Assembly: GCA_016748015.1 (NCBI GenBank)
Contig: JAAOMT010000128.1
Location: 1,049,471 to 1,113,470 of the forward strand
From: Geosiphon pyriformis
Lineage: Eukaryota; Glomeromycota; Glomeromycetes; Archaeosporales; Geosiphonaceae
Reading direction: 5' to 3'
Length of the DNA stretch: 64,000 nucleotides
The notes beneath the pieces are model-generated. The model was not told the origin of the DNA. It saw only the letters and a list, made by a program, of their open reading frames with translations, and did no database searches. A program made the translations under genes and the position numbers. Positions within the stretch are counted from its first letter, which is position 1. Each line of letters starts with the position of its first letter. Shown here piece after piece: positions 1 through 62,900 of this stretch.

Positions 1-470
1 ATAAACCTCATTTTGGAAGACAACACGGACTCTTAACTCTTCGGACTTGACAATCAGACGTTGACAGAAATGGTAATGTTTCCGAAGCAATTTTCGGACA
101 GTATTTTTCCCGTACGATTCGTCATGACGATTGCGTCAAACTCGCGAGGGAAGAACACGATCGCCTTTCTGTGAATCTCACTCTGCAGGTGCACAATTCT
201 TCATCGTATGTGCGAGACTGCTTTACCGAGTCTCTGGGGAAATTTTGCGCTTATCATCGTCGAAGAGAAACACGAGTTTTGTAGAACGAAGACGAAGTCG
301 CAGAGATGGTCGCGACTTACCAGTTCCAATAGAGCCTTCGGTTGTTTGAACCTTACACCTGAGGGGAGGTTTGTAGGTTGGAAATTGAGAACCCTTTTGT
401 CGCTCGAGATACTTTTCTTGGTTGGCGCTAGAGACACGGCGTAGAGATAACCTTTCTTAGTAGCGGAGGT
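1..470 (-). pseudogene. Fanzor (TnpB-like) nuclease remnant, internally deleted, cut by window edge
   Basis: Read on the minus strand, 470-226 matches the 5' flank and start region of the Fanzor relic at 37.2-37.7 kb, for example around GTTTGTAGGTTGG and around the start codon near 255. Then 225-1 jumps directly into the C-terminal RuvC half. One frame gives HLQSEIHRKAI..FFPREFDAI, the typical TnpB/Fanzor helix after the bridge. Another frame gives RKLLRKHYHFCQRLIVKSEE and then FQNEVY at the window edge, the RuvC-II Glu block. The coding frame switches between these blocks and stops interrupt it, so it cannot make a nuclease. The zinc ribbon and RuvC-III would lie outside the window. Family assignment is from motif memory; the shared 5' flank is seen directly. 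A decayed transposase of another family is unlikely given the order of blocks. Confidence 0.68.
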
Positions 471-8600: not shown

Positions 8601-9141
8601 TTGTCCAATAATTTTCAAAATAAGGCTGTTGTTATTCATAGAAATTAAGAATTATAATAAGTAAATAAAATAGCCAATCAAAAATAAGCATAGTAAAAAA
8701 AGAAATTCCAGAATTTTTTTTGAAAAATTACAGAATTTTAGAATTTTAGAATTTTAGGATTTCTTGCAAAAAAATTAAAAAATTTTAAGAAATTTTATAT
8801 AATATGAATTATGTATATATAATAAGAATATTAGAAGCAAAAAAGACAATTTAGTTTAAAATAACAATATTTTTTTATTAAAAAATAGTTTTCTATAACT
8901 TGAAGTGGAATTAAATTTATATTAATAAAACATCTATTATTATCTAAATTAATGTTATTATTACTTAATTAAAAAAATATTAATCCATTTCACACTATTA
9001 ACACTCCATGTTGATAAAATTTAATATTTAACTATATTAAATCAATAGCTTTTGATTATGACTATTGACAAAATACTAATTTTTTATTTTTTATTTTTTA
9101 TTTTTTTTGTTGTTTATTAATTAATTAAAGATATTAAGTAC

Positions 9142-10037
9142 TGTTACTTATAGAAAAATAGATTAATAGGAGAATAGGACTTAGTAAGTAAGCACAATAT
9201 TAGAAAATTATGACACATTACTTAGCAATAAATACATTGTTAGTAAATTATGACACACTGCTCAGCAATAAATATATTGTTAAAAAATTATAACATATTA
9301 CTTAGCAATGAGCATATTGTCAAAGAAAATAAGGCATATTGCTCAAAAAAATACAAAATTTCATAATAACATAAATTATATATATATAGCAAAAATATTA
9401 AAAACAGAAAAAATAATTCCAAAAAAATTCAATAGAAGTTCCAAATTAATTTAGAACAATAGCTTTTTTTCAAAAAATAGTTTTCTATGACTTGAAGTGA
9501 AATCATTTTCATATTAATAAAATTATTTATTATTATTGAATTCATGTTATTATTACTTGATTAAGAATATTAATTACTTTTATTACTATTAACACTTCAT
9601 ATTAATAAAATTCAACACTTAACTACATTAGAACAATAGCTTTTAATTATGATTATTAATAGAATACTAACTTTTTTATTTTTTTTTATTTTCTTTTGTT
9701 TTATTTTTTTGTTGTTTACTAATTAATTAAAAAAATTAAGCATTGAATTATTAACATTAAAAAGAACTGGTAAAAAACTCATAAAACAAAAATAAAAACT
9801 CGGAAATTAAGGATAACTTACCAGAAAAAACTAGTTATTAAGCTGAGAAAAAAATTTATAAAATAAGCTTTTAGAAAGATATTGAAATAACCATTAAATC
9901 TCTGTTCATTATACAAAAAATTTAACCAAAACTTTCAGATCATGAAAATTTTCAAATTTACCAACATTATCAAGCTATTAATCACCAAATTATGAATTTG
10001 TTATTTGTACTAACACTCCAAATAATCACTTATAACA
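9142..10037 (+). repeat. solo LTR of a related subfamily nested in the 5' LTR
   Basis: Starts TGTTACTTATAG and ends CACTTATAACA, the same terminal inverted ends as the family LTRs. No internal coding sequence follows. Flanks GTAC (9138-9141) and ATAC (10038-10041) are compatible with a 4-bp target duplication carrying one G to A change. Confidence 0.65.
9201..9345 (+). repeat. 40-bp tandem repeat, about 3.5 units
   Basis: Units start at 9201, 9241, 9281 and 9321 with an exact 40-bp step; the shared core is AAATTAtgACAcAtTactTAGCAAT. It sits in the solo LTR at a place comparable to a different 40-bp repeat in the younger LTRs. Confidence 0.85.
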
Positions 10038-10327
10038 ATACTAAGTAATTAATATTAAAAATAGCCTAGTAAAAAATCTAGAAACAAGAATAAAAAATTT
10101 AAGAATAATTTATCAAAAGAGCATAACTGTCAAAATAAACTGGCTATCATACTGAAGAAAAAAATTTACAGAAAAAACCATTAATTAAATCTCTGCTTAT
10201 TATACAAAAAACTTAACAAAAATCTTTAGACTTTAAAATCTTCAAAAATTACCAAAATTCCCAGCTATTGAGCACTAAATTATAGATTTGTTATTTGTTT
10301 CAACATTCCAAATAATTATTTGTAATA

Positions 10328-12060
10328 TTTGGTGCTTTTTGTAAGATATAATCTAACAGAAAACTAGCACTAACAATAATTATTCAGAAAAGTAACAGAA
10401 TCAGAAGTAACAAAAACAAATTATTTAGGATTTGCCAAATCTTTATTCACTATTACCAAATTTATTTCAGACTAACAAATAATCATTGGCCAGCAGATTC
10501 AGTTTTTAATTTCTATGTTAATAAAAAAATTACATCATACTTGGAAAATCAAGAAGATTTAAAAGTTATTTTTAACAATTTTTATAGTGAATTACTCCAA
10601 AGCACCATGTTTTCACATAATTATTTGTTTGCTTCACTAATCACAAAAATAAATTAAGAAATTGAGAATTATACCCAACAAAAATTTTCTATTATCTTTG
10701 CAGACAAAAATAAAAAAAAGTTACAAACTCCAGCAAAAACACCAAAAAAAATACAACTACTTATTTGAAAGAAACCAAAAGTCATTTTACCTATTTATCT
10801 ATTATACTATTATATACCAGAAAGTACTATTCATATATCATCTAAATCCACATTACCATAAATTACAAAAACACTATTATTCAGAGTATTATTTTAAAAT
10901 AATTAAAAAAAAACCAAATTATTAGAAACTTATAGCAATTTTTTTAAAGAATTTAAATTATGACCAACAACTCTATTAAAACTTTAATTACTGTCACTTC
11001 AACCAAATTTCAGATCTACCAGTTATTAAGAAGATACTAAATTAGAAGAAAAAAAAAACAATAATTAGAAAAATAACAATTAAAATTTAATCTTAAATAA
11101 TCTGAAAGTTCAAACTCTAATTGTTTAAACTTAGCAAAACCTGAACAATCTAAACTCAGTTCTTGTTTTTTCAGAAAACTTATCTCTAGTTATTTTAATT
11201 AATTAACTGCCAGTAGCACTAATTACTGTTTAGTAATAATCACAACAATAATTATTACTCACATTAATAATATATAACCAATCACAAAACTTGAAAATTT
11301 TATTAGCAAAAAAGACAACATCTAAGTATGGATAAATAATATAACAAAAACTATTGCAGCCAACAGATAAAATAATGTCAAAGCACTTTAAGCTATATTA
11401 TACTTTTTCAGAATACTATTAACTTATAGTATTAAAACTTAATTAACAAATTACAAATCTTTAATGCATTTAAAACTGTATTTCTATAATATTTTAGTAA
11501 TTACAACAGTATTAATTAGTTATTAACTAGCTTTACTACTATCAAACAAAATAATACTAAAATAGTTACCACATATCTGAAACATTTTTATCAAAATCTG
11601 TATTAAATTCAAACAATTAAAGCTGATTACTTTACAATACTACAGATTTTAAATCAATTTATTTATGAATTATACAGCAGCTTGTTACAATAAATATGTT
11701 TAATATACTCAAATACTCTTCAAGATACAATTATATATGCCAGAAATTTTGAATCAGCTAAACTTAAAGCCAATCATGCACAAGCTGTAAATTTAGTTAT
11801 AAACAGATCATTTGAATTAAATTTTAAGCTAAAACAATTTAGTAATTTTATTAACCAGAAATTAGAAAGATATTTAATTAACAATTAAGCCATATATTAG
11901 CTTTCTTAATATTACAACAATTCAGAAAATTCCAGTCAATTTTAAAATCAGCTGTGTCTATTATTATTATTATTAAATTAATTATGGCAACAAAAAATAT
12001 GTAATTGCTACTACTGTAATAAACAAGACTATTTAAAAGCAAATTACCATTCTAGGTCTA
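10328..12060 (+). pseudogene. gag-like relic with mutated zinc knuckle
   Basis: Translation from about 10490 (FNFYVNKKIT, then YTQQKFSI, LLYYYIPEST, LLETYSNFF) follows the gag of the 59-kb element block by block. Around 11750-11870 ARNFESAKLKANHAQAVNL matches its capsid C-terminal part. Near 12000 the zinc knuckle reads CYYCNKQDYLKANYH: the expected His and last Cys are both Tyr (CAC to TAC, TGC/TGT to TAT type transitions). Several stops; not functional. Confidence 0.7.
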
Positions 12061-12599
12061 ATAATTCACCAATATAAAAGTCCTAATTGCAGATTTTAAA
12101 CCAGAATTATACCAATAATTTGTTATTAGAATTATATCAATTCTATTATGTACTAATAACAAAACAATTTATATATATATCTTTAATATATTAAACTTCA
12201 ATATTAATAATCTATCAATTACAGCCACAAATAATTTATTAAACCCAAAAAATTCAAATATTACTTCAATATATTGTGCCAATATCAACTAGAAACCAAA
12301 GACCAAGAATTATGCACACCCAACAAAACTGGAAATTAACAATAATAATATATTAATTGATTTTCAGTTTATCAAATTAGCTATTAGAATTATGCCAACA
12401 GAGTTCAGAAAGTGAGTACATCTAAAATCTAAATTCCAAAACTATTTAAGTCTATTAGTAATTCCAAAAATTACAATATTTAAATCACTAAAAACCAACT
12501 TAATACTACTTATTAACAATATTTCACTAGCAATTATCATAAAAAACAAATTACTAACCACTATTTTTTCATTTGAGTTGAAAGACTAATCAGAAATTT

Positions 12600-12960
12600 C
12601 ATTATTCAATGAAGTTATTTTTGATACTAAACCAATTACTGCCATGTATACTAATGTCAAAATTAATGACCACTCTATTAAACTAATTCTTAATAATAGT
12701 TTAACAGACAACATTATTACATAACAACTTATAAATCAAATAGATTGCCAAGTTGATTGTACTGCTAGTATTAGAATTATTACTATTAATAGAGCTTCTA
12801 AGACTCTTATTAGTAAAATCAATAACTTTTCTTTTAAAGTCAATGGCATTATCATACTTATTAAAGTTATCATAGAAGCCATATAATATTAAATTTTTAT
12901 TAGTAATAACTAGCTGTCTAAGACCAATATTATATTTAACTAAAATACCCAAAAGCTATA
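12600..12960 (+). pseudogene. retropepsin-like protease relic
   Basis: The frame around 12625-12960 reads AMYTNVKINDHSIKLILNNS, then ITXQLINQIDCQVD, then FKVNGIIILIKV and LSKTNIIFN. This fits an LTR-retroelement aspartic protease (core hydrophobic-hydrophobic-D-S/T-G, flap, second I-G-x-D/N-W block). The catalytic triplet has become N-N-S, and the later block carries in-frame stops. Confidence 0.6.
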
Positions 12961-13299
12961 GTTTGGTCAAAATGGTCAACATATTTAAGTACCAGCTATC
13001 TGTGATTACTTTAAAACAATTTTATTCCAATTACTGATAGAATTTAAGAAAAAACAAACAAATCTATCTGAAAAGTCTATTAAGTTTTATGGACTAATAA
13101 TGATTACAATAAGCTATTACCAATCCTCTCTTAGGATAAAAAGAAAAAAAAAAGGAAAACAAGTTTTAAAACATTACTATCACAAAGAAACATTCAATAA
13201 TTGGCATGTATCTTATTTATTAACACCAAAAAAAAACCACATTATATCTTACTTATATGTATTGATTATAACAAAAAGCTTTTATTTATAAGAGCTTGA

Positions 13300-14150
13300 A
13301 TTTTTTTAGAAAAAAACCACAAAACATATATTTGTTATTATTGCAAACCATGCCACAAAAAATGTTTTAAGTATTTAAAATAACAAAAAAAGTAGAACAA
13401 CAAACCATGTTTTGCTTGTAAGAAAATCTTATTTAATAAAAAAATATGAAATAATATTCTTGGATAAAAAAGAATGTGTAATATATTATGTCAATACACA
13501 ATTTTTATTAACAACTGGATAAGCAAAAAAATATCTTTTAATATTATATGGAACAGAGCTTTTTTATGCTTAAATAATTATTTACATAATAAAAACAAGA
13601 TCTGAAAAATGATAAGTACTAAAGTTAAAGACATTTTATCTAATAAAATATTAGCAATTAAAAACAACCCACCAGAATTTGTTAAAACTATTTTCATTCC
13701 AAACCCAATATCTTTGTTAATATTTTAAGCAATTCAAAACAATTTTATGAATATTACTAAGATTTAACACTTACTTAAAAAGAGCAAAAGCAGTATTTAA
13801 AATAATTAAATATTAGACTCTATAAATATTGCCTAATTTTTAATGACTTTGAATATTATAATAATTGTGATCTCATTTATAATCTACTATCATACATAAT
13901 TTATTTAATTCCTAAAGAGAAAAAACCAATCAGCAGTTGTACTTCAAAATTAAAATTAAAATTTAATTCTAATTTAAACTCTAATAATGATAACAACAAT
14001 GTTTTTAATTTTGTTTACAATAATAATAACAATAACAATAATTTAAATTTTAATGAAAACTTTAAACATTATATTATGTTTCCAAATCTTTTAAAAAACT
14101 AAGAAATTTAAAAAATCTTAATAGAACTCAATATTAAAAGGAGAGAATAA
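13300..14150 (+). pseudogene. Cys-rich module of unknown role and element 3' end
   Basis: Around 13330-13440 one frame gives CYYCKPCHKKC and, after stops, KPCFACKKILF; around 13490 it gives CQYTIFINNWI. Spaced CxxC pairs suggest a former zinc-binding module. Then comes an Asn/Glu-rich low-complexity stretch (13900-14060), and a purine-rich AAAGGAGAGAA at 14137-14147 just before the 3' LTR that would serve as polypurine tract. I do not recognise a named domain. Confidence 0.45.
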
Positions 14151-14938
14151 TATTATTTATAGAAATTAAGAATTATAATAAGTAGATAAAATAGCCAATC
14201 AAAAATAGATATAGTAAAAAAAAAAATTCCAAAATTTCTCTTAAAGAATTACATGATTCTAGAATTTTAGAATTCCAGAATTCTTTGCAAAAAAATTAAA
14301 AAATTAAAAAAAACCTTATATAACATGAATTATATATATATAATAAAAGTATTAGAAGCAAAAAAAACAATTTAGTTTAAAACAACAATACTTTTCTTTT
14401 TAAAAAATAGTTTTCTATAACTTAAAATAAAATTATACTTATATCAATAAAATATTTATTATTATCCAAATCTATATTATTATTACTTAATTAAAAAAAT
14501 ATTAATTATTTCACACTATTAATACTTTATGTTAATAGAATTTAATATTTAACCATATTGTACCAATAACTCTTAATTACAATTATTAACAAGATATTAA
14601 TTTTTTATTTTTTTTTATTTGTTATTTACTAATTAATTAAAAAAATTAAGAACTAAGTAATTGATGTCAAAAATAGCTTGATAAAAGACTTAAAAACAAG
14701 AATAAAAATTTAAAAATAACTTATCAGAAGGGCACAACTGCCAAAATAAACTAGTTATCATACTTAAGAAAAAAATTCATAGAAGAAACTATCAATTAAA
14801 TTTCTGTTTATTATACAAAAAACTTAACAAAAATTTTCAAACTCCAAAATTTTCAAAAATTACCAATATTTTCAGCTATTAAGCACCAAGTTATGAATCT
14901 GTTATTTGTTCTAATACTCTAAATAATCATTTGTAATA
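14151..14938 (+). repeat. 3' LTR of the decayed element
   Basis: 788 bp. Aligns with 8630-9141 plus 10038-10327 and with the LTRs at 55-64 kb; terminal TG and CA are mutated to TA and TA. Confidence 0.75.
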
Positions 14939-15526
14939 TTGTATATTATCTATTATTATATAATTAAAACTGTTTAATTAAATTCAAACAAAAAGTAAAA
15001 TAATCTTAATAATTTGATTTATTAATACAAAAAGTATTCTTTAAAGATTTTTTAAGCACAGATTATTAAATTTACAAATAATAAATTAAAGTTTTTAGAA
15101 TTTTTTTTAGTTTTTAGTTGGATTAAAAGTTAATTTTATGAATTATTTTTTAACAAATATGATTAAAATATTTTTAAACAATAAAATTTTTTTGGTTGTT
15201 AAGATATTTAATGCTTTTTACTTTAAACATAGTATTTTTGTTTTGAATATATTAAATTAATATTTAAAAAAATAGCTTTAAAATATTTTGTTTAGCTATT
15301 TTTATAATAAAAAACATTTTTCTTATTAAAAATTTATTAATTATTATAAAAAAAGTAATATTTACAACTTTTTTATTTTTTGTTTTGATTGTAATCATAA
15401 AAATAGAAGTATAATAAAAAATTACTTTAAAATTAAGTAATATTATAAAATAATTAAATAAAATATATATTAAAATCTAATTTGTTTTGTTTTTATAATT
15501 AAAAATAATTATATATTAATCATATA

Positions 15527-17815
15527 AGAAAAATTAAAAACTTTTTGTCTCCTTAATTTTATGACCATAACCAGAGCAAAGAGTAAAAAAGCTGCACCTG
15601 ATATCTGTTCTGAGATATCTAATAAAATTTCAACCAGAGGAGCTCTCTCTGTTGTAGAAGCAACTAGACAAAATGTTTTAGAAGCCTTCTTCTTACCCAG
15701 TAATCGTGATAAGCTGCTTTTGGTAGCCACTGAAGCAACTTCTTCATCTTTGGCTGGTTTTTTACCAGTCAAAGTCCTCTCAAAGAGACATCTAAGTTAG
15801 TCTCAGTGTTGTCTTCACCCCAACCAAGAGCCCAAAAGTTTTTAATAATAAACCAGTAAATAAGCTGGTCTTTCCCTTTATAGGTTCAATACCTGGTACT
15901 TCTAGCACCACCTCTTCAAAAAAAATGGTCAAAAAAACCAGAAGTTCAGAAAAGTAGAGCAGTCGCTTGCCTCTGCTATTGTTACACCAAACTCTTTTGT
16001 GGTTCCCAATAAAATTTTAGATGAGATCTCTATAGCATTATCCAGCACATTATCCAAGATGGGCCAAGATCAACCACTGGCTATGTTGTCAAACGTGGTG
16101 TCTTCTGACAGATCATTGCTGGTTGTAGAAGCAAAACAATCTCCTCCTGTTGGGTCACCTGTTCTTGGGAACTAGATTGATTAAATGGAAACTGATTCAT
16201 CTTTTTTTCTAGTTTCTGGTGCTACTTCTGGTGGTGCTTGGGAAACTATTACTAGTCGTTAAAAGTTTGCTGGGTGAGTGGCCTCTACTCTGGTGCCTGG
16301 TGCTACTTTTAAGATCAAATTGGCTTATGTTAAGACTGTTTTTCAGTTTGTGCATGGTTTCTTGGATGCTAAATCTGTTCCAAAAGACAATTTGAAGCTT
16401 TTCTGTATGGAGTTTGCTTTTCAACAGTCTTTGGAAGCTGTGTTTTTGGTTGAGCTTACAAGCTCTGTTTGTTTGACCACTCTCAAAATTGCCAAGTCTT
16501 TGGTGGTTTCTGAATCTGGTTCCCCTCCTGCTGCTGTTGTGCTGCGTAATATACCTTTGGGTATGTCTGCTGCTAATGTTAAGTTGGCTCTCAGTGTATT
16601 TGGTAGTATTACTCGTGTTGTGCTGAAGCCTGCTGGCATTTGGCAGTATGTGGTGGTTTATTTTAAAAAGTTAGACTCTGTTGTGTCTGCCTTAAAGCAT
16701 TGATCAGTCTTGATGGGCAAGGATAGTGTTAGAATCCTCCTTCTGGTGAATCAAAATGAGACTATTTTGTCTTGTGATAAGTTTAAGGCCAAATTAGTCA
16801 ACCTTCCCCCTGGCTGTACTGCCTTTGAAATCAGTAATATGATTTCTCAGATTGGTGGTTGAACATGTTTCATCTCTCGTTCTCCTGATTCTGGTCATCG
16901 TTCCTGGTTTGTTTTGATTACATTTAACTCTCAAGGTGATTTGGATTCTGCTATAGTCAAGACTAGTACTCTAAGGAAATGCCATATCTGGTGGGAAACT
17001 CCTGGCTGCTGGTGCTGTTTTAGGTGTCAAGAAATGGGCCATCTGGCTGTGGATTGCAAAATTTCCCCACTTCCTACTCCCAAGATTTCCAAGGTTTTCA
17101 AGTCTTATTTTGTGGGTAGTGTTTCTTATGCGAAGGCTTCTGCTTTCCTGGATTCTTCTGAGTTTCCTCCCTTGGCGGTTTCTATTTCCTCTTCTATGGT
17201 TGTTGGTAATTCTTTAATGTCTTTCCGGTTGGCTTCTTTGGAATCTGATTTGGTCAAGCTTTCTACTTTGGTTAAGTCTATTGTTAAACCAGTTGGTTTC
17301 TTGGTCAAATTGTTTGAGCAATTTATTAATGGGGATTTGGTCTCAAGCAGTAAACTTGGCCTTAAAGTCAATAAAATTATGGTATATATAGGTTCTTTTA
17401 GTAAGATTGTTGGTAAGTTGAGAAGGGAAGTAGTTTCTTTAAAAAAAGAATGTTGCATGGAAGATATCAATATGTTTGGTAATTCAGAGCATCCAGTTGG
17501 TTTGGATGATGAGGTGTTTTCTAATTTGTTGTCCCTTTGGGAACATGAGCCTATTGATGTTAAAGCTGATGCCTTAAAAACAGCTGAATGGCTGGTTGGA
17601 TTGGTTTCTTGTAGTGCGACTTTGTTTTTGGTTATTTAAAAGATGTCATTTTTGGGTAAGTTTTCTTCTGGTGCATCAACATAGTATAGCCTGAACTGGC
17701 TCGAGTAACTGGTTATATGTAGAAAATGCATGAACTACATCTAATTTAAGACCTTACATAGTCATATTGTATTAGATAGTGGTTGGGTCTTGCTCGTTAA
17801 ACTCTAATAAAAAAA
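15527..17815 (+). mobile_element. LINE-derived element with ORF1 only and a LINE 3' tail
   Basis: Flanked by perfect 9-bp direct repeats AATCATATA (15518-15526 and 17816-17824), with an A-rich end just before the right repeat. The last ~180 bp (TGGTTATATGTAGAAAATGCATGA ... CTCGTTAAACTC) is clearly related to the 3' end of the LINE at 54.0-54.1 kb. Only an ORF1-like region lies between; endonuclease, RT and RNase H are absent. GC content is far higher than in the host AT-rich block, so it is a younger insertion. It fits an ORF2-less element mobilised in trans, or an internally deleted LINE. Confidence 0.75.
15561..17639 (+). pseudogene. LINE ORF1-type protein, RRM-like fold plus zinc knuckle, broken
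   Basis: Open stretches 15561-15800, 16278-16703 and 16914-17639 form one degenerate reading with a few stops and frame slips. Block order is a Ser/Ala-rich N-terminus; then an RRM-like segment around 16530-16700 (AVVLRNIPLGMSAANVK, IWQYVVVYF); then a CCHC knuckle around 17010-17060 (CFRCQEMGHLAVDC); then a helical coiled-coil-like stretch (17220-17460). Such ORF1 proteins bind RNA in LINE RNPs. The C-terminal part (LWEHEPIDVKADALKTAEWL) leads directly into the 3' UTR. Reading-frame breaks make a single full-length product unlikely. Confidence 0.65.
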
Positions 17816-28525: not shown

Positions 28526-29007
28526 GATATATTGTACTTTTGAGGCATTATTCAAAGTATATGCGTTTCTTGGAAAAAGTTTAAGCTTTAAGGTCCTTGA
28601 TTATTCAGAATCATTGCAGAAAAACTTGCGACCGATAATTAGTTCTTTTAGGAACCAGTTTCCTTGCAACTTTGATAATTTACAAATTAAAAAACACAGT
28701 GGTGAAACAGTTAATACTATCAAAGTAAATTTTGGTGCCATGGCTGCATATAGTAATTATCACTATTATCTTTATTCTGACAAGGCTCAATAAGTTAATC
28801 AATCTTTAGTTATAAATTAGCTTCAACTAATAGTGCTGCTTTAGCACATGCTTAGATTTCCAGTAAATTTGATCGACTTTACAAACACGTGATAAGTATC
28901 TTGGCTTTTCATTGCCTTAAAAATGTCCCACAATTTCACAGCTGCACATTTAATATAACTCATTTTCAATATAATCATATTGAACCCAAGACCCTCAATT
29001 TTCTTTA
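28526..29007. other. NAF1 3' region and U2 upstream region
   Basis: An open frame at 28515-28793 overlaps the NAF1 stop and has no recognisable domain; treated as 3' UTR. The ~200 bp before 29008 should contain the U2 snRNA promoter. A TTAAAAATG stretch at 28917-28925 is a possible TATA-like box, but I cannot define a PSE. Confidence 0.45.
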
Positions 29008-29195
29008 ATCCTCTCAAGCCTTTTGGCTAAGATCAAGTGTAGTATCTGTTCTTTACAGTGTAATATCTGTAACAGAGTTCACTGAACTCTTACGATATTA
29101 GACTAATTTTTGCCATTAGGGCTGGAGTCCCTGGCTTGCTACACTCTGGTCCATGGGTGTCCCTAGTATTGCACTACTTCTAGGTTGACGCCCAC
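29008..29195 (+). ncRNA. U2: U2 spliceosomal snRNA
   Basis: The 5' end ATCCTCTCAAGCCTTTTGGC, then TAAGATCAAGTGTAGTATCTG, is the conserved U2 stem I region. GTAGTA at 29039-29044 is the branch-point recognition sequence, which pairs with UACUAAC-type branch sites. The Sm-binding site AATTTTTG lies at about 29104-29111. It is followed by 3' stem-loops, including CTAGTATTGCACTACTTCTAG (stem IV region) near 29163-29183. Length about 188 nt is normal for U2. The exact 3' end is uncertain by a few bases. Confidence 0.95.
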
Positions 29196-30084
29196 CCTCC
29201 TGGGGGAGGTTAAAAACCCACCACAAAAATAGCGGGGGCGGGAATAGAAATAGCAACACAAACATATAAATGTAACTCATAATTATATAATGCTCGTGAT
29301 TACTATACAACTCTAATTACGGTGGTTAATTGCGAGAAATAAATATTTTTGAATTGCAAAATTTGGGAAGAAATAAAATATATACATATTTAAAACCACT
29401 TCGGGTCGTATAAAGTTGGCATCTGGGCCGAAATTGAGATAAAGCTGTTTTTTTAGCGCTCAGAAACCTTTTTTTGCTTGGAGTAAAAACACGACTGGAA
29501 GAGTATTTTTCTTAATCGCAATGTGTAAAATTTAATATATAAAAGAATTAAAAACCAAAAAAAATTTTAAAATCTCCAAATAAATGATTTATATTAATAT
29601 ATAAATTCATAAATTAAGTTATATTTTTAAAATTTAATATAAATAGACATATTTTTGGTTGTAACAAAGTGAGATTTTTTTATTATTTATATTAAATACA
29701 ACAAAATTATAATGTATATTAAAATATTAATAATTTTCAAAAATTAAACATTATTAATATACATATTGTTATATATTAATATCAAAAATACTAATATATA
29801 AAACACAAATTAATTTTAATTATTAAAATATTTCAACTTACATAAATTTTATTATAAGATTGTTAAATAAATTATGTAAATAATAAAAAACAGATTTTTA
29901 ATACAGCAAAATTGAAATCGATTAAGATATATAAATTGCTATAAAAGAATCAACGGAGAAGAAACTTAGGATTTTTCATCTTAACCTTCATTTCAAGAAC
30001 CCCTAAAAATCGAAATCAATTAAAATTGGTCAATAAAAATATTCATATGGTAAGGACAATAATGTGAAGAAAATGAAATATTTC
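29196..30084. other. intergenic, mostly AT-rich
   Basis: The first ~100 bp is U2 3' flank. 29520-29960 is strongly AT-rich without a recognisable element. No gene seen. Confidence 0.6.
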
Positions 30085-37189: not shown

Positions 37190-39060
37190 GGTCAATCTAA
37201 TTTTTTTATGAAAAAAAAGCAGCTCTTGCAAGTCACTGTAAATAAATTAAGATATTTGAATCGCGAGGAGCCAGCAATTAACATAAAAGCATGCTTATCA
37301 GGTTTAAAATGACGAAAATGAACACCTTTTTCTCTTCCCACCTCCCTCTTTACTGAGCTAACTTCTAAAAATGCTGATACACCACCTCTGCTACCAAGAA
37401 AGGCTACCTCTACGCCCGTATCTCTAGTGCAAAGTAAAAAGAGGATCTCGAGAGACAAAAACAACTACTCCTCGGTTTCCAACCTACAAACTATTAAGCG
37501 ATATCAGCTTTGGCGTCAACTTCAAGCCCCAAGAGTTTAAGACCCTACTGGAACGATCAAGCCACGGTGCTGTCTCGGAGGTTGCCATTACCTACTGTGA
37601 TTGACTCTGTTTTTTGCCTTTGACCTCCTCCAACATCTCTTCCCACTCCGCAAAACTCGTGATTCTCTTCGACAATGCGATCTCAGAAAAACACAAACTC
37701 TTCCAGGATATTTTTGCCGTCAACACCGTCTTCTGCTACATGCAGGGAAGGAGAGCTGCTTGCTACTGAAAGGAATGCAAGTAAAAAAAAGCACCAGGGA
37801 AAAGCAACAGCAAACCGTGACAAACGTCAGAAGACGGAAGGCATCCTTAACCGCACATTACTAGTCAGGACGTATTCTGACTACAGATATTGAAGCGATG
37901 GATGGACTTGGTGAGATTTGCCTTTAGTATTGTGGTGGGATGGAGCAAGAGGTATCGCATCATTATTTTTCGGCTATCTAGGTGAAAGAAAATTTTGCAG
38001 AGCCATCATCTGTCTTGACATGCTCTTAAGAGTTTGCTTATGCTCAACTCCTACTAACATCACGGACGAAGCGATTGATCAAGCCTTGGTTGCGTGAAAG
38101 GAAGTTATTAAACATGATGCACAGCGACAACAAGGTGCATCAACATATTTTTTTCTTTTCAATCTTGTAAGGCACTGCATCACACCATAACAATTTGTGC
38201 TCAGAATTTTGTCAAGTATCTTAGAATCGCTTCTAAAGATAATGAAAATTTTCCGTTTTTGGGTTTTTTTAAATTGTTTTATACCATTATTTATGTCGTT
38301 TTTATGCCATTTTTTTTATCCTTTATTTTTGACATGTATTATAGCCTCTCCACTTTGAAATAAATGGCCCAATCCACCCAAGATTACATGTGATGTCAAG
38401 CTCACCCACTATCGCAGAACTAATGAGTGGAAGTTTGCCTGAATATACGAGACCCAAAATAGCTCTGCAAAACCCAAGCGGATGGCTCTGTTCATGCAGT
38501 CTATATTAATCCTGGCGTCCGTATATCTTTTACAAAAGGTGTATGCAATATTGGTAAAGATTCAATTGGACATATAGTTCACATTTGCAAGTACTTTGAT
38601 GATCTCATCTGCGAAAAGGAAAAGTTATTAGCATCTTTCTCGAGACGTAAAAATAAAATGGCCTGGTGACTCGATAAGGCTATTTTTCGGATGCGACGAA
38701 ATTTTCTACGTCTCCAAAGTGAAATTCGTCAAAAATCAATAAAAATCTTTATTCGCGAATTCAAATGCTATTATCATTTCTCCTTTTTGAAGTGTCAGAC
38801 ATGGTAAATCGTAAGAAAAGAGATATTACACAAAAAACTGTCCAGAAAATGCTTTGTTGGGCGTATTGTTGCTTTCAACAATGCCTGATCAGCAAAGTTC
38901 AAAGAATTAGGGGTTCGTGTTATTATTCAAAATGAAGCTTACACATCCAAGACTCGCAGTCAATTTGGCAACACCCAAAGAATTGGAGGATCTTCCTCTG
39001 CCTATTATTGATGTGTTAAAATCCATCTGAAGATTTTTGAATAGGTGGAACAATTTCGGT
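37190..39060 (+). pseudogene. Fanzor (TnpB-like, OMEGA family) RNA-guided nuclease relic
   Basis: 37190-37560 is 5' flank shared with the remnant at 1-470. From 37675 an Arg/Lys/Ser-rich N-terminus is readable. Near 37890 MDLVRFAFSIVVGW fits the TnpB entry helix (W-x-G-x-x-R-F-x-Y-N). From 38390 the beta-barrel strand LTHYRRTNEWKFA appears. RuvC-I at 38502-38525 reads YINPGVRISFTKG, where the catalytic Asp (D-P-G-V-R) has become Asn. FRMRRNFLRLQSEIRQKS (38685-38740) is the following helix. RuvC-II at 38925-38955 reads QNEAYTSKT with Glu kept (38934-38936). In the zinc ribbon the expected CxxC is R-x-x-F, one later Cys remains, and the DRD/NGARN block is destroyed. At least four in-frame stops plus frame shifts. 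Function in life: RNA-guided DNA cleavage linked to a transposon. Certainly inactive here. Confidence 0.8.
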
Positions 39061-39229
39061 TACCACGTATACAATTTAAATAATCAATTCCTTAACTCGT
39101 TATTGTATATTAAGGCTTTTATTGCTTCAAAGTTTACAGGGATAATAAATGTTAGGGCTTTACTGCGCAATGAAGTCAACTTTTTTCAGATAAATTTACA
39201 TTTAGCCAAAATAATAAAACTCTGAAATA

Positions 39230-39540
39230 TTGAACATTTGCATTTTTGAACAATTATAATAATGTTTGATTTATTAATCAAGTTATATAGTTTAAAATTA
39301 TAAGTAAGAGAAAATTATTTGCTTAATTAAATAAGTTATTCTTAATAATATATATTTTTTAATATTTGAAAATTTATTGTTTAATTTTGTATATTATGTA
39401 AATATTAAATTGATTTAATATATCAATTAAATGGTTAATATTTTAAAAAATATAATTCCAAATTTATTTTGTATTTTCCAATTACATAAGTTTACTTATA
39501 AAAAAGTAAAAATTAAAAAGCACAATATAAAATGAAATCG
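39230..39540. other. AT-rich spacer
   Basis: No gene seen. It could include the right end of the Fanzor element, but no end motif or inverted repeat was found. Confidence 0.5.
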
Positions 39541-49315: not shown

Positions 49316-52300
49316 AGTGGTCTGGTATGGAAAATTGCTACGTGTAATGTTTGTGGATTGAACAATCCTACGAAGCAAGATGATGTAATTCATTGGCACA
49401 AGGATATAAACAATTTGGTTTCTATTTTTACAGAGTCAAAGCTTAAAGAAAAAGCTTGCCCATAGCTGACCAACAAATTTGATGATGTTTGAGTTTTTAC
49501 TTTTAGTTTAAATTCTGGTTTTTTGGGTGCTGGGGTGTTAATCGTAGTGAATTCTTCTTTGGCAAAACATGTCTACAAGGTCTCTGAGGTGCCTGGTCAG
49601 CTCCTATCCATCAAGTTGCTTTTCAAAAATAAACTTTCAGTGTTTATTTTGGGGCTCTATGCTGGTGCTTCATTGGTGGTTCAGTTTTCTCAGACTGGTG
49701 AAATCAACTCTCTCATTGCTAAAGCTGTTAATGAGTCTTCTTTTATTATTCTTGGTGGTGATTTTAATGAGGATGGTTCTCACAAATGTGCCAGTTTTAA
49801 GAAATGGTTTGATTTGGATTTGATTAACTCTCTGAGGGGGAGCTCTTTTGTGAAATCACTTACTTGGTGCAATTCTTGTGGTATCTCTAAGACAATTGAC
49901 TATGTGTTTATTTCTTCTAATTTGGTTGGTGTGATAATGGATTGTGATGTGGATGGCATTGAGGACTATTTTGATACTGATCACAAGGCTGTTTATGTTT
50001 CTGTGGGACTGGGTGGCCTGCTCAATGTTCGGTTGAACTTACTGCACAAACAAGCAAATAGAGATTATTGGAAGTATGATATCAATAATACCAATGAGAT
50101 TGAGTATTCAGAATTCAGGAATACTATGGCTGCTAATGTTGTTATGTTCTCGGATGAGTTTGATGCAGCTAAGTGGTTTTCTAATCTGGATGTGATGTGA
50201 GACATTGTTCGTAAGATTATGGTTCTTTCAGCTGATAGAACATTCAAGAAAAAATGGTTTAAGAATTTTGAATGTGTTTTTAATAAGGTTTCTTCCCGGT
50301 TTCATAAACTGGAGCTACTTGTGTCTAAACTGGTGAAGGCTTCTCAGTTGGTTTCTGGTGGGGATTTTGCCTTATTGTTGAATACTTAGAACAGGTTAGA
50401 TTCTGTGGGTGCTTCACCAGTGAATTCTCTGTTTCTTTCTGGCACTGGTTTTAATGCAGTCCATTCTGGGCTGGCTAAGACGAGGAAGTCTTACTGCTTT
50501 TCTAAGTTGTTGGAATCTAAGTGTGCTGAAGAATCTAGTGTAAGGCAGGCTATTGGGAAGAGAATGGAAAGTTTTGAGGTGGATAAGAGTTATACTATTA
50601 GGAGTGTTTTGGAGCATCCTTTTCGTAAAGTGGTGTTAGATTATTTGGTAGATGGTGAGAAGTTGGTCTTGGAGCCTGATTTGGTTAAGTCTAAGATGGA
50701 TGAGATCATGGAAGATTAGACTAGGAAATGTGTGATGGCTTTTGATATCTCTGGTGATTGGGCAAGACAATTTCGGTCTTTGGATCATGTCTTTGATAGT
50801 GCCTTCTCTAATGTGATGTATTCAATCAGTTTCGATGAGATGTTTGGTATTATTTCAAATTTGCCCAATGGGAAAGTGGCTGGTCTTTCTGGTATCACTA
50901 ATGAACTTTGAAAACACTATGACAAGTCAGTCTTGGATATGCTTTTGGTGCTCTTAAATTTTTGTTTGGTTTGTGAGTCTGCTTGGATCTTGGAGGAAAG
51001 CCTGGATCTTAATAATACCTAAACTTTATGAGTGGGAAGGAGTTCTTATGAATACCTGTCTCATTGCTTTGATTGAAACAGCTTGCAAGGTTCTTTCCAA
51101 GATTCTTTCAGATTAGATCTCTTTGGCTTGTAGCACTTTTGATGTCCTCTATGGGGACAATTTCTCTGTCCTGAAAAGTATGTTTACTCAATTACTTATC
51201 TTCGCTATTGGTTCGGTGATCAAGGATGCTTTGGAAAAGAACCAAGAGTTGTGGCTGGTTTTATAGGATATGCACAAGATTTTGTTGGTTGAGAGCATCT
51301 CAAGAGAAGTTTGGTTAGGATCAAAATGTGTAACAAATTTATCAGATTTTTTGGTAGCATTCATAATGGTCGCATTAACAGAGTAATGACAGATTTTGGT
51401 TTGACTGATAAATATCATGTTCACGATGGATTAGATCAAGGGGAGGTTTTTTTGCCATTTCTCTGGCATATATTTTATGACTCACTTTTGTGTGAGGTTA
51501 AGAAACAGAAGAGCATTTGTGGTTACAGGTTGATTTTTCATTTCGTTTCTAAGACTGGCCAGGTGGAATCTCAAGCTGGGCTAATGTTGTTTCTGGCCAC
51601 TGGTGTATTTGTTAATGATACTATCTGGGTCAGTAGCAGCCAGGCTGCTACACAACACATCCTTAATGTTGCTAGTAATTTCTTTTATTTAAATGACATT
51701 TCAATAAACAATAACAAGACTGTGGCCATTCCTATCAACTGTCAGGTCACTGCTCCTTGTCTGACTATTAGTGGTATGCCAATTTCCATCACTAAAAGAG
51801 ATAAATCTCATCATTATCTGGGAATTTTTTTGTCTTCTGAAGGTTTTTCGAAGCCTAGCTTGGTTAAGACACATTCGGATGTTCGGTTTTTCATCAATCT
51901 TGTTCTGAGAAAAGCTATTTCAGATAAACAGTTTGCTTATTTGGTGTCTTCGGTTCTCTTTCCTATCATCAGCTACAGAACTCAGTTCAGTTTTATTCCT
52001 TTCAGTGTATGTAATAAGTGGGATGCTTTGATTCACAAAGGTCTGAAGTCCAAATTTGGGCTGCCTCTGAACTTTCCCAATGATGCACTTCATCATTCTT
52101 CCTTGTACAATTTAAAAACTTTTGAGCAGATTCAGGCTGAGAGCAAGTCAGCTTCAGTTATTGCTTTTGTGAATTTGGTTGGTGTTTTGGGTCGCTTGTT
52201 TTCTTATAGGTCTCACAATCTCCAGGTTCTCAGCTGGTGTCCTCGTTACCTTTTGTTGTTTTCTGTTCATGTTAGAGTCAGCCCTTCAAACAACTTTTTG

Positions 52301-53992
52301 GCAGATGTGGTTCGTATTTTTTCTGGGTGTGATTTGTCTTTGGATGATTCTCTGACTGGTGCTTTTTATCTTCAGAGTGGTACTCCTATGTCTCTAGTTC
52401 TTGGCAAGACAATTTTCTTTAAATGTGTTTCTTCTCTTAGGCATTATGGTATTGCTTTCATAGAACAGCTGTGTGACCGAAATGGTGTTGTTTTTAATTG
52501 GAAAACTTTCAAGCATTGGAAAAAACTAGACCCCCGTGGCCCAGTCCCTTCCTGGTTTGATCTCTCTATATGTTTTTTTGGTGGTGTAACTTCTCCTTCT
52601 AGGCATTCTTCTCATGAAAGTGTTTATGGCACTTCTGACATCTGTTAGTCTCTTGGTTTTGGTGTTGTTTGTAATGATCTGTTGAATGTTGGTGCTGTCC
52701 ACCTATCTGTGTACACGGATGGATCTCTGAGTAACTTGGGCATTGTTGACATATTAGCTGAGACTGCAGTTTTCTTTGAGAACATTAATTCGGGTCTGGG
52801 TGTAGAGGTTTCTGGTTTGGTTTTTTCTACTTTGGTGGAGTTGCAAGCCATTGCTTTAGTTCTTGAGTGTGTTCCTTCTTTTCATTCAGTTGACTTGTTC
52901 TTGGACAGCCAGGTGGCCATAGATGCTTGCAGGTCGGAGTCTTTATCGGTTGGCACTGATTTCAGGAATCATTGTTGGATTGAGTGTCATCAAATCACCA
53001 ATGTCATTTGTCACAAAAATTTGGATGTCAATTGGATTAAGGTTAAGGGCCATTCGGGTGTTTCAGGCAATGAGCATGCTAATGTGCTGGCTAAGGATGC
53101 TGCACTTTCTGCCTGGCACCTGTCTTATTTGGTCAGTGAGAGGTTTTTGAAGACTGGTGTTGGTACAGTTTCTGGCAATTCGAGGCATTTTGTTCGTAAC
53201 ATATACAGGTCAATTCATTATGTGCACTGGGAGGTTGGTTCTGGTTCTTGGATTGTTCCAGGTTGTTTGTATGTTGATATTGACTGGTCGAGGTCTTCCC
53301 TAGTGTGGCACCTGAATTCCCACATGGCGACTGGTTCTACTAGTATTTGGACAGCTGGCTTTCATATGTATTTCATGAAAGCCCTTTATTATTGCCTTTC
53401 TGTTGCTATGTGAAAGCGTCTGTATGATAGGGGTTATTTCAGTGTAGTTTGTTTGTTCTGTAGTGAGGTTGAAATCTCAAACCATATCTTTTCTTGCTCT
53501 TCTGATGCTAATAGTCACACCAGTTTGTTGGACAATTATGCAGTTGTCTGGGAGGTGCATTCTGGCCTGTCTCATTCTTTTTTGTGCATATCACAATTGT
53601 TGTCAACTTGCATTTCAGATGTGACTGTTAGTACAACCCTGTGTAAAGGCTTTGTTTTTGGCAATTGGTATTGCGAGTCTGTTTCTGTTTACAAGGATCC
53701 TAAGGTGGCAGTGGTTAATGTTATAAATTTTGTATGTGAATTCTGTCTTGTGTTTCATAATAATATCTGGCTGGTCTGTGCGAAACACCAGGTCATTATG
53801 GAGAAAAATAAGCTGATTTCACGTGATGATTCTATTTCTGTCGCTATTTCTGGTTTTTCTATGTGGCTTTCGGCTGGAGTAATTAGGTTGTTGGGTATTG
53901 CTGATGCACTTGGCATCAGTTTTGGGTATTGTAAGCATTGTTTGTTTTATGTAGGTGTTGGTGACATGGCTTTCATTCATATAAGTGCGTAG
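49316..53992 (+). pseudogene. LINE ORF2: APE endonuclease, reverse transcriptase, RNase H
   Basis: Endonuclease starts VWKIATCNVCGLNN (49325) and includes ILGGDFNED and DTDHKAV, both catalytic blocks present. RT spans about 50600-52000: GLSGITNEL, GLDQGEVFLPFLW, and the active-site motif FVNDTIW where FVDD is expected (D to N at ~51610). RNase H at 52690-53110 shows YTDGS, LVELQAIALVLE, FLDSQ and GHSGVSGNEHANVLAK, the last Asp also changed to Asn. The C-terminal domain begins with CLFCSEVEISNHIFSC near 53448. In-frame stops occur around 49463, 49490, 50198, 50388, 50717 and 50908, then several near 51020-51120. No full ORF2 can be made from this copy. Confidence 0.85.
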
Positions 53993-54599: not shown

Positions 54600-55265
54600 A
54601 ATTTAACAAGTGAAGTCTAAACACTGCCTAGTGACAATACATCAAATTAATGATCTATACTAGATATGAATCATGCTTTTTCTACATGTAACTAGCCATT
54701 CAAGCCAATCAAGACTATATTATACATCTACATACACAGAAACCAAATTACCTATACCTGAAAAAAATCGATAGAAACTGCACAACCCAAAATTAATACC
54801 AAATGCATCATCAATACCAAACAACTTAATTACTTGGACCAAAAGTGTCGACATGCCACCAGACACTGAAACAGAAATCAAACCATTGTGAAGGATCAGA
54901 CCATGTTTTTCTATAAAAGCATAATGCTTGGAGCAGACCAGCCAAATATCATTCCTAAAAAACAAGCACAAACCATGAACAAACTCAACTATCTTATCAG
55001 ATACAATCTTAGAGTTATCAAAACAGGAAGTGGCCTTCTGGTACCAATCCATAAGTATAAAACCTTTGCACAGCAAAGCAACCAATCCCAAATTAGCCAA
55101 ACAGGTAGATAAAATTTGTGACACATAAGAAGAGGCATGAAGTAGACCAGAAATAGCTCTCCAAGCAAAAGCAAAATCAACAAACAATTAACTCTGAGCA
55201 GCCACATCAAATGTACAAGAAAAAACATAGTCCAACACTTCAATATTGTCACAATACAGGCATAT
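54600..55265 (-). mobile_element. 3' fragment of another LINE, minus strand
   Basis: The minus-strand frame 55187-54720 (FAWRAISGLLHASSYVSQIL; LCKGFILMDWYQKA; NDIWLVCSKHYAFIEKHGLI; KLFGIDDAFGINFG) is homologous to the ORF2 C-terminus at 53550-53990. It is followed by the same type of 3' UTR and an A-tail (T-rich at 54580-54600 on the plus strand). 5'-truncated: it starts at 55265, where the LTR element begins. It lies tail-to-tail with the 47.3-54.1 kb LINE. Confidence 0.8.
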
Positions 55266-59244: not shown

Positions 59245-59289
59245 TTTGGTGCTCTCTGTGAAGTATAATTTTGCAAAAAACCAGCACCA

Positions 59290-61090
59290 ATGACACCTAT
59301 CCCAAAAGTGGCAAAATCAAAAAGAATAGAAGCAAACTATTTAGAATTTGCAAAATTTTTGTTTCAACAGTACAGCCAACAATTAGGACTAAACAATAAC
59401 CACTTCCCAGCAAAATCAGCCTTCAACTTCTATGTCAACAACAAAATCACAGACTGTTTAGGAAAAACAGTTAACATTGAATCTGCAAGAGAAAATTTCT
59501 ATACAGAATTATTCCAACATACCAGCTTACCAAGGAACTACAGTTTTGTGCCAATCATCAGGGAAATAAACCAAGTTATTGAAAGATATACACAACAACA
59601 ATTCTCAATCACATATGCAGACAAAGACAAGGAAAGATTGCAAACACCAGCAGTAACACCAAAACAAATACAACCACCCACTTGGAAAAAAACCAGAGTT
59701 GAATTACCAACCAATCTATTATACTATTATATACCAAAAAGTACCATTAACATCTCATTAACAGGCACGTCCACATTAAACATGACATCAATATTTGGGC
59801 AACTTCTCTTTCAAAGTAAACAAAAGAAAGCAGAATTACTAGAAACCTACAGCAATTATTTTGAAAGATTTAAATCGCAATCGCCAATGCCATCAGGATT
59901 CTGATCACTGCCATCTCAACCAGATTTCAGAAACATAAGTCCTTGAGAGATAATAGAACCAGAGGAGAAAAAAGAAGAAGAAGCCAAAGATCAAGAATTT
60001 ACTTATTAGAAACTGATTCTAAAAAACCTGAACATTAAAACCCTGAACTTTTAGACTCAGCAAGATCCAAATTTAAAAAATCCAGAAACTAAAACTCCGA
60101 ACTTTCAAATTCCTCAAAATCCGAACAATACAAATCCCAAAATAATTAATCAGCAAAACCTACCTTCAGTACTCATTATCAATTAACCACCAATTAAACC
60201 AGTTATTGAACTGATTCAACAGCAGCCACTTTAACCATCTCAACAACCACAACAGCCACTTCAACAGCTGTAACAACAACTTTAACAACCAAACTTAGAT
60301 CCAATGGCTTACACCCCAATAGCAAAACTTGAGAAATTCACAGGAGAAAAGGACAACACACAAGTGTGGCTAAATGATGTAAAAAAGGCCATTACAGCCA
60401 ATGGATGGAATAACACCAGAGCACTCTAAGCCATCCTTTATTTCTTATAGAATACCGTTAACTTGTGGTATCAAAGTTTAGTTGCCAAACCTCAAACATT
60501 CCAAGAATTTAAAGTTGTATTCTTGAAATATTTTAGTAATAATAACAGTATTAATTGCCTGACCAACACCTTTACTACAATCAAACAAGGAGAAACAGAA
60601 GTAGTTACCATGTATTTAAGACACTTCCATAAAAATCTGTGCCAGATCTAAGCAATCAATGCCAATTATTTCACAGCAGTCCAGATCCTAAACCAATTTA
60701 TTCACGGATTATGCAGTAACATTCTGCAATGCATATGTCCAATGCATCCAGCCGATCTGCAAACTGCCATCACAAATGCCAGAGATTTTGAAGCAGCTGA
60801 ATTAAAAGCTAACCATGCCCAAGCTGTAAATCTAATGATGAATAGATCATCTGAATTGGATTCCAAATTGAAACAATTCAGTAATTCCATTAACCAAAAG
60901 CTTGAAGAGTACTTAGCTAACAATTGCGCAATTTATTAGCCACCTCAATGATGCAATAATTTAGGAACTACAAATCATCCACAAAATCAGTCATGTCTTT
61001 TATTATTATCCAATCAGCCATGGCAGCAAGAAATGCATATTTGCTACTATTGTAGTAAACAAGATCACTTATAGTTTGAATGCCATAAAC
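59290..61090 (+). pseudogene. gag polyprotein with zinc knuckle
   Basis: The N-terminal frame 59290-59904 is open (204 residues). A Gln/Pro/Asn-rich linker with stops follows (59905-60300). The capsid-like part is 60304-60941, with WLNDVKKAITANGW, NVWYQSLVAKPQTFQEFK, GETEVVTMYLRHFHKNL and LQTAITNARDFEAAELKANH, the usual retrotransposon gag pattern. The CCHC knuckle near 61034-61085 reads CYYCSKQDHL-stop-FEC and keeps all four ligands. At least five stops interrupt the frame. Gag would form the virus-like particle and bind the element RNA. Confidence 0.75.
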
Positions 61091-61214
61091 GGCTAAATGA
61101 ACAAAGATTAGGCTATTAGTATTGAAACTCTAATCACTGACTACAAACTCAGAATTACATTAGTAATCAATCACCAGAACTGTATCAACCGACTTACCTA
61201 CTTATAACACAACA

Positions 61215-61580
61215 AACTATTTATTATTACCACCAATACATCAGGCCAAGCATTGGGAGCAGTACTATCACAGAAAAAACCAGACAAAAGAGAGCATCTA
61301 GTAGCTTATGCCAGTAGAAGCTTAAGTTCAGCTAAAAAAAACTATAGAACTTCAGCATTGGAACACTTAGCTATCTATTGGGCTGTCATTAAATGGAAAA
61401 AATACTTGAGTCAAAAATTTGATGTGTATACTGATTACAAAGAATTGACTTCAATTCAGAAACAAAAATTTGGAGACGATCACTATGCCAGATAAAAAAT
61501 AGAACTTTTATCATTTAATTATACAGTACATTATAAAAAAGGAAAAGAAAATGGAAATGTTGATGGATTGTCATAAATGA
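61215..61580 (+). pseudogene. LTR-element RNase H fragment, RT missing
   Basis: TNTSGQALGAVLSQKKPDKR, VAYASRSLSSAKKNYRTSAL, EHLAIYWAVIKW and VYTDYKEL follow the gypsy RNase H pattern; the first Asp (T-D-A-S-G) is Asn. There is no protease or RT between the knuckle and this block, only ~130 bp, so an internal deletion has removed them. Confidence 0.8.
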
Positions 61581-61779
61581 GACAAATCTAAAAACATTTC
61601 AACCCAAAATATATCAAAAGATAAATATACAGAAATACCAACAACTCCAACATTATATAAATACCCAATTGTTTAAGAAGAAATTATCTCAAAAGAAACA
61701 AAGAAACATAAAACAACAAGCAAAATATTTTATCAATCATCAAAATATACTTTATTAAAAGAACAAAAGAAATCCAGAT

Positions 61780-62900
61780 CAACCAATTAGAGTAATCACA
61801 GAATCAGAAAAAGAGACAATATTATTTAACATGTACACAAATCCAACAGCAGAACATTTTCATAAAGAAGCAATCATAAAAAGAACCAGAAAAAGATATT
61901 ATTGGCCATCAATATATCCAGATATCATTCAATATGTTCAAAATTGTGATGCTTGTCAAAGAAGAGATGGGACAAAACCCAATAAACCATTGAGACCAAT
62001 CAAAGTGGAACAACCATTTAACCATATTGGAATCAACTTAGTTGGACTATTAACAATCACCAGCAGAGGCAACAGATATATTGCAGTAGCCATAGATTAT
62101 TTTATGAAATGGCCAGAAGCAAAAGCCATTCAAAGAGCAGATGCGGAATCCATTGTGGAATTTGTTTATCAAAATTTAATCTGTCAACACAAATGTCCAA
62201 AAAAACTATTATTAGATTAAAAAACTTATTTTGTGAATAGAACATTGGCAGAATTAAGCCAAAGATTTGGAATAAAAAGACCATTATTATTACTATACCA
62301 TCTACAAACAAATGAACTAGTTAAAAGATTTAACAAAATATTGTGTAAAACCATTACCAAAATCAGCCAAGAAAACCAGAATGAATAGGATTTGATTATA
62401 TCATCAGTATTATTTGCTTATTAGACAATAAAGCAAGACACTATATAAGCAACACTATTTAAATTAGTTTATAGTAGAACAACAACACTGCCAGTTGAGA
62501 TAGAAGTCAACACTTATCCAACAAAACCAATAATTGAGGACAATTTTTAGGAAACATTGCTAAGAAGAACATATGACTTAATGGAAACACTAGAAAATAA
62601 ATGGCAAAGAGCAGCTGATAACATCCAAAAGTCACAAGAAAAACAAAAAGAAAGACATAATAACAAACTACCAAATAAACCAGTTGAATTCAAGATTAGA
62701 GACAAAGTACTTTTACATTATACCAAAGTGAAAAAACAATGGAGTAGAAAATTTGATCCCAAATAAGATGAACCATTTTACATTGAAGAAATTCTTGGAA
62801 ATGGAGCTTATAAATTAAGATAGGACAACAAAATCTTAGCCAAAGCAGCACATAGTAATCGACTGAAACTATATTACCATATAGTGTTACTATCCACCAA
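61780..62900 (+). pseudogene. gypsy-type integrase, broken
   Basis: The zinc-binding N-terminus HFHKEAIIKRTRKRYYWPSI, then CDACQRR, is complete. In the catalytic core, INLVGLLTITSRGNRYIAVA has Asn where the first Asp of D,D-35-E is expected. LLLD is followed by a stop (62218). HLQTNELVKRFNKIL keeps the Glu. The C-terminal part shows KIRDKVLLHYTKVKKQWSRK. Several stops. Integrase would insert the cDNA into the host genome. Confidence 0.82.

Follow-up and report, generated by a model that had tools for sequence, protein, structure and literature searches.

Relic of a probable IS607-type Fanzor2 transposon, apparently extinct, in the genome of Geosiphon pyriformis

The window, by which we mean the whole 64,000-nucleotide stretch of Geosiphon pyriformis DNA analysed here, carries at about 37275-39028 what we read, with a probability of about 0.93, as a single IS607-type DNA transposon, now degraded, that encoded a serine recombinase (TnpA) and a Fanzor RNA-guided nuclease. 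These limits are those of the genome DNA matches to 37190-39260. The anatomy of the relic is that of IS607/Fanzor2 rather than that of a stand-alone Fanzor, since terminal inverted repeats were not seen, subterminal repeats and a right-end hairpin accompany the family, and the junctions carry CG or one of its decay products. An earlier note on this DNA had described a Fanzor relic at 37190-39060; the Fanzor does lie inside that range, but homology starts only at ~37275 and stops at 39028, and the note had missed the IS607-type element to which the nuclease belongs as the 3' gene and which brings its own serine recombinase, whose remnant occupies 37393-37769.

The window copy is dead: the catalytic Asp has become Asn, the ribbon and last Asp are deleted, and both TnpA and Fanzor are interrupted. 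We describe it as a copy of an IS607-type Fanzor2 transposon that is apparently extinct. It is of an ordinary kind and stands out by its copy number, its CG junctions, a TnpA without DNA-binding domain and an intron.

Two interrupted genes in one element

The element has the make-up of a eukaryotic IS607-type DNA transposon and carried two overlapping genes. Its parts are collected in Table 1.

Table 1. Features of the relic and its right flank, in window positions
Feature	Position	Strand	Basis
IS607-type TnpA and Fanzor element, whole relic	37275-39028	+	Own-genome DNA matches, HSP limits, right end in 33 copies, left end in relatives
Catalytic-domain remnant of an IS607-family TnpA serine recombinase, with frameshifts and stops (TKKGYLYARISSAK-stop-KEDLERQK ... 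LLSDISFGVNFKPQEFKTLLERSSHGAVSEVAITYCD ... LFQDIFAVNTVFCYMQGRRAACY-stop)	37393-37769	+	
TnpA stop codon	37767-37769	+	
Fanzor N-terminal strand/entry helix remnant (RQKTEGILNRTLLVRTYSDYRY-stop)	37825-37893	+	Translation; same block in relatives L088, L044, L061
Deletion site, ~70 bp that most copies carry	37963-37966	+	Alignment
Remnant of intron-like GT...AG insertion, 5' donor side deleted	38235-38331	+	Common to at least 10 copies; absent in L088/L049
Fanzor RuvC-I block DGSVHAVYINPGVRISFTKG (YINPGV; family SIDPGV/I)	38481-38546	+	Translation
Catalytic Asp codon, GAT to AAT (Asn)	38508-38510	+	Aligned copies
Fanzor RuvC-II (NEAYTSKT), first half of zinc ribbon with Cys lost, deletion joint, terminal AYY stop	38889-39011	+	
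Joint of a ~120-150-bp deletion (second Cys pair and RuvC-III Asp gone; DRDENG in relatives)	38992-38998	+	
Right end CTGCCTATTATTGATGTGTTAAAATCCATCT, 3' arm of hairpin, putative guide-RNA scaffold end; next base G	38998-39028	+	
Host flank (would have been guide), outside the element	39029-39250	+	Copies share no similarity past end

The first gene is recognised most clearly through its relatives, whose 5' part reads KKGYLYARVSS.KQKEDLERQ ... DIGSGINFKR.GLKTLLER ... VSEI..TH.DRL. The NCBIfam model NF033518 (IS607 transposase) matches a read-through of the window copy at E=9e-4 (residues 37479-37607) and the relatives L088, L089 and L038 at 1.5e-23, 1e-17 and 1.8e-13, respectively. This IS607-specific model was needed because PF00239 (Pfam Resolvase) gave no match to the window pieces alone; PF00239 matches L038 at 1.8e-4 and stands above its cut-off at three places in the genome. 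At C397:2607, a Resolvase match, a Fanzor and a perfect right end lie within one copy. The PDB matches are IS607-family TnpA structures (L088 against ISC1926 TnpA, 8.8e-13), and the best TnpA matches in the genome all contain stops.

The N-terminal DNA-binding domain of TnpA was not recognised, the NF033518 match starting at profile position 51-54 of 187, and the distance from the left end to the catalytic motif is under 200 bp, as measured in one internally deleted copy. As its TnpA shows no such domain, the amplified form of the element may have been non-autonomous. Substitutions between copies show a codon-phase bias in the TnpA frame, with a third-position peak (p 0.002-0.06), and also peak at the third codon position in the RuvC frame (7e-9), from which it follows that selection once acted on both genes. 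L088 also has, at L088:254-833 (+), an open alternative frame of 193 codons that covers the whole TnpA region and runs into the Fanzor N-terminus; along it there is no stop in at least 40% of copies. We do not claim it as an overprinted extension of Fanzor, since substitution phases favour the TnpA frame and the majority sequence interrupts it once.

For the second gene, much of the earlier note is sustained by own-genome copies, PF07282 and family proteins, all of which match. Its N-P-G-V-R RuvC-I block is found in the translation, ELGVRVIIQNEAYTSKT and a degraded zinc ribbon are confirmed, and the Asp-to-Asn change was placed exactly: GAT stands in 18 of 26 aligned copies and AAT in three, the window copy among them. 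Both cysteines of the first ribbon pair are gone (TSKTRSQFGN against TSKTCSQCGN in relatives). The OrfB/Fanzor profile search that the note had proposed as a check finds PF07282 (TNB/zinc ribbon) at window 38889-39008 in a direct scan (E=1.5e-4; 22.3 bits, below the 26.3 cut-off) and at C370:1088350-1088496, equal to window 38880-39026, in the genome scan (E=0.005). A relative's protein matches window 38523-38765 at E=5.8e-21. PF01385, the OrfB_IS605 middle domain, has no match in this genome.

Relatives carry the full D-X(125,275)-[TS][TS]xx-C4 ribbon-RD motif (IDPG ... TSKTCSQCGN ... CRNCGIVIDRDENG), of which the relic has Asn for Asp and a deleted second half of the ribbon. A DPG in RuvC-I together with an alternative RuvC-II glutamate separates Fanzors from ordinary TnpBs (PMC10711439), and the copies have both, as SIDPGV/I and QNEAYTSKT. 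Their Fanzor frame extends into the right end of the element (...MLSIAYY stop). The PDB match of the Fanzor is the mimivirus TnpB-like protein L79 (3e-17), and the SpuFz1 chain is absent among the PDB profile matches.

In a tree of 86 columns that took in no Fanzor1 sequence, the family of the window relic (family A) and a second family of this genome (family B) group with Fanzors of viral contigs, apart from ordinary TnpBs, with 96/98 support; family B is not sister to family A. Several of these viral-contig Fanzors have a complete IS607 TnpA upstream, and viral contigs (IMG/VR) are the closest database relatives of the TNB region, at up to 58% identity (L092). The Fanzor-like group of the tree also holds TnpB-type proteins of Poribacteria metagenome contigs (L102-L106), which are either pro-Fanzors or misbinned contigs.

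Ends, junctions and the putative guide scaffold

The right end, which overlaps the 3' end of the Fanzor gene, has at least 33 occurrences in the genome within 3 mismatches, against 0 for a reversed control. We took 17 right-end loci individually for comparison; the compared copies end at ...TTGCCTATTATTGATGTGTTACAATCCATCC, with unrelated DNA beyond. The left end of relatives, ATGAAAAGATTTGCTTAATAATGCC, occurs 19 times, against 0 in the control, and is unrecognisable in the window copy. Compared by eye, the two ends showed no inverted repeats, and subterminal direct repeats GCTTARTAWTGCCTATYA stand near both.

The dinucleotide at the right junction is CG in 19 of 29 cases and TG or CA, the decay products of CG, in 6 more (25/29), against a background CG share of 1.6% among window dinucleotides. 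At the left junction, CG is found in 4 of 10 copies identified without CG in the pattern and in 8 of 19 from the pattern search. Matching CG dinucleotides at the left and right junctions, without target duplication, are as for an IS607 element: such elements are free of inverted repeats and duplications, and their exchange takes place across a matching dinucleotide, which is GG in IS607 (PMC6188088). The right end of the window family likewise matches the near-fixed right-flanking base described by Yoon et al. (PMC10711439).

The arms of the right-end hairpin, AATAATAGGC/GCCTATTATT, pair in 93.9% of cells, compared with 25-67% after sliding, and the relic has lost the 5' arm. Compensatory changes in this hairpin were not above shuffles, and RNAalifold gave no useful consensus for the right end because the copies carry many deletions. 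A guide scaffold finishing at the element's right end is plausible. The earlier note had placed the scaffold at 39060-39250, which proves to be unrelated host flank; the conserved right end is 38998-39028.

We infer the functions of both genes by analogy. The serine recombinase, as the TnpA catalytic domain, would have been the mover of the element, and experimental work on relatives suggests that movement would proceed via recombination between matching dinucleotides. The Fanzor guide RNA would end at the right end of the element, with its guide read from the flanking host DNA; cutting by Fanzor, directed by this right-end RNA, is thought from the same kind of work to favour retention of the element.

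These ends and junctions bear on the best-surviving alternative, namely that the relic is a stand-alone Fanzor1 in a MuDR-, mariner- or Helitron-like cut-and-paste transposon of eukaryotes and its recombinase-like part is due to chance. Such elements are known in the fungi Mucor, Rhizopus and Phycomyces (PMC3627910), and introns are frequent in Fanzor1 genes. The proposal is nonetheless largely refuted, and we consider it very improbable: IS607 TnpA homology reaches 1.5e-23 within the same copies, the ends lack visible inverted repeats, the CG junctions lack duplication, among solved structures the nearest relative is a TnpB-like protein of a virus, and at the DNA level it is viral Fanzors that come closest, several of them beside an IS607 TnpA.

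Copies, decay and apparent extinction in the genome

Searched against the assembly of 124.7 Mb in 406 contigs, 37190-39260 (2,071 bases) gives 88 DNA matches, a count that includes the stretch itself; identity in the remainder is 64-97%. The PF07282 model finds 117 places in the genome, with the relic among them and about 68 family places above the cut-off. To judge from dozens of copies with exact shared ends and unrelated flanks, the element itself moved within this genome. The same copies speak against a remnant of an integrated large DNA virus whose IS607/Fanzor2 element was not independently mobile here, a reading to which the closeness of the viral contigs lends some support and which we hold to be even less probable than a Fanzor1 origin; nor did anything viral come to notice beside the relic within the window.

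The genome had active Fanzor copies, as the earlier note had supposed, but the intact relatives it expected were not found: more than 100 family places examined, including all fetched copies, hold no open full-length frame. Protein searches with two families listed 86 and 149 matches; most of these contain stops, and no match is full length. Allowing for introns and the limits of the searches, survival of an intact copy is unlikely, and the family is apparently extinct.

Two further sets of copies were observed. One lies at window 1-420 (-) and extends past the window edge to C370:1049005. It is another copy of the element, with internal deletions, in which TnpA pieces (LERQKGSQFPTYK, TKLVFLFDDD) lie beside a piece of Fanzor (KSEELRVRVVFQNEVY); the Fanzor match there, at 123-311, has E=2.7e-5. 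The other is family B (L061, L003 and L004, at C354:385587, C114:445556 and C250:405775), whose zinc ribbon is better kept (PF07282 at 72.9 bits; a single stop within the last 200 aa); the guided_TnpB model NF040570 matches the second family of this genome at 1.6e-23.

A majority string of transposon copies served frame mapping and divergence estimates alone. The window copy aligns with it over 1,614 bases at 80% identity; the differences comprise 125 C>T/G>A changes, 76 T>C/A>G changes and numerous small indels. The stretch that relatives carry at 37963 was considered as an intron lost from the relic and rejected; it is open coding sequence in relatives, so the relic has a deletion. An intron-like GT...AG insertion of ~100-130 bp is present in one subgroup (L012, L032, L045, L058, L060) and precisely missing in L049/L088, which points to intron gain or loss inside one Fanzor family. 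Its partial retention in the window copy indicates that this copy was not processed. A processed (retro-copied) or domesticated Fanzor gene, for which one missing ~70-bp stretch might speak as an intron would, can accordingly be dismissed as next to negligible, since that stretch is coding in relatives, the real intron-like insertion is kept, the copy stops exactly at the family right end and its frame is broken throughout.

Elsewhere in the window we observe a U2 spliceosomal RNA gene at 29006-29200 (+; 157 bits), a very AT-rich tract at 4001-16000 (GC 10-22%, against 35-40% around it) and retroelement ORFs at 49493-53992 (+), 54720-55187 (-) and 59269-62220 (+), with endonuclease/RT/RNase H pieces and gag-like and integrase-like frames. 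We presume that these ORFs, at 49-62 kb, recall those of arbuscular mycorrhizal fungi.

Comparison with known systems

Fanzor2/IS607 elements connect the TnpB of bacteria with the Fanzors of eukaryotes. The many ends and junctions of one high-copy family, apparently extinct, in a single genome supply a statistical record of target dinucleotide, right-end (guide-RNA) boundary and decay, and they shift the search for the guide scaffold to the right end. We tentatively propose, at somewhat less than even odds, that an IS607/Fanzor2 lineage rose to more than 100 copies in a fungus-like genome with a recombinase without DNA-binding domain and CG exchange, then died out completely, and that this happened in two separate lineages (families A and B) of this one genome. 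Our literature search turned up no paper that connects Fanzor or IS607 to these fungi, a result that counts as weak evidence for absence. Set beside described systems, the window family compares as follows:

(i) Fanzor2/eukaryotic IS607-like elements have the same order, an IS607 TnpA and then a Fanzor with DPG RuvC-I and NEAYTSKT/C4/DRD (PMC3627910; PMC10711439), the same lack of inverted repeats and a nearly fixed right-flanking base. In 2013, few families per genome were listed (Bao & Jurka 2013, PMC3627910), whereas here there are many decayed copies (33 right ends), all those examined being dead, with an intron-like insertion, a TnpA without recognisable N-terminal DNA-binding domain, and CG rather than GG junctions.

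(ii) The viral IS607-Fanzor contigs of IMG/VR (L090, L093, L096) share the two-gene order, and their TnpA matches NF033518. The viral TnpA is a complete protein that includes the N-terminal part (L090, profile 2-187), whereas here the match covers positions from 51 on.

(iii) Bacterial IS607 (TnpA and TnpB; PMC6188088) shares the serine recombinase, subterminal repeats, absence of inverted repeats and duplication, and dinucleotide exchange. It prefers GG targets and carries TnpB, whereas the window family has CG and Fanzor.

(iv) The Fanzor1 SpuFz1 of Spizellomyces (PMC10432273) shares the RuvC/zinc-ribbon nuclease and a guide RNA at the 3' end of the element, putative here. The SpuFz1 element has inverted repeats of 30 nt, whereas the window family shows none and adds an IS607 recombinase gene.
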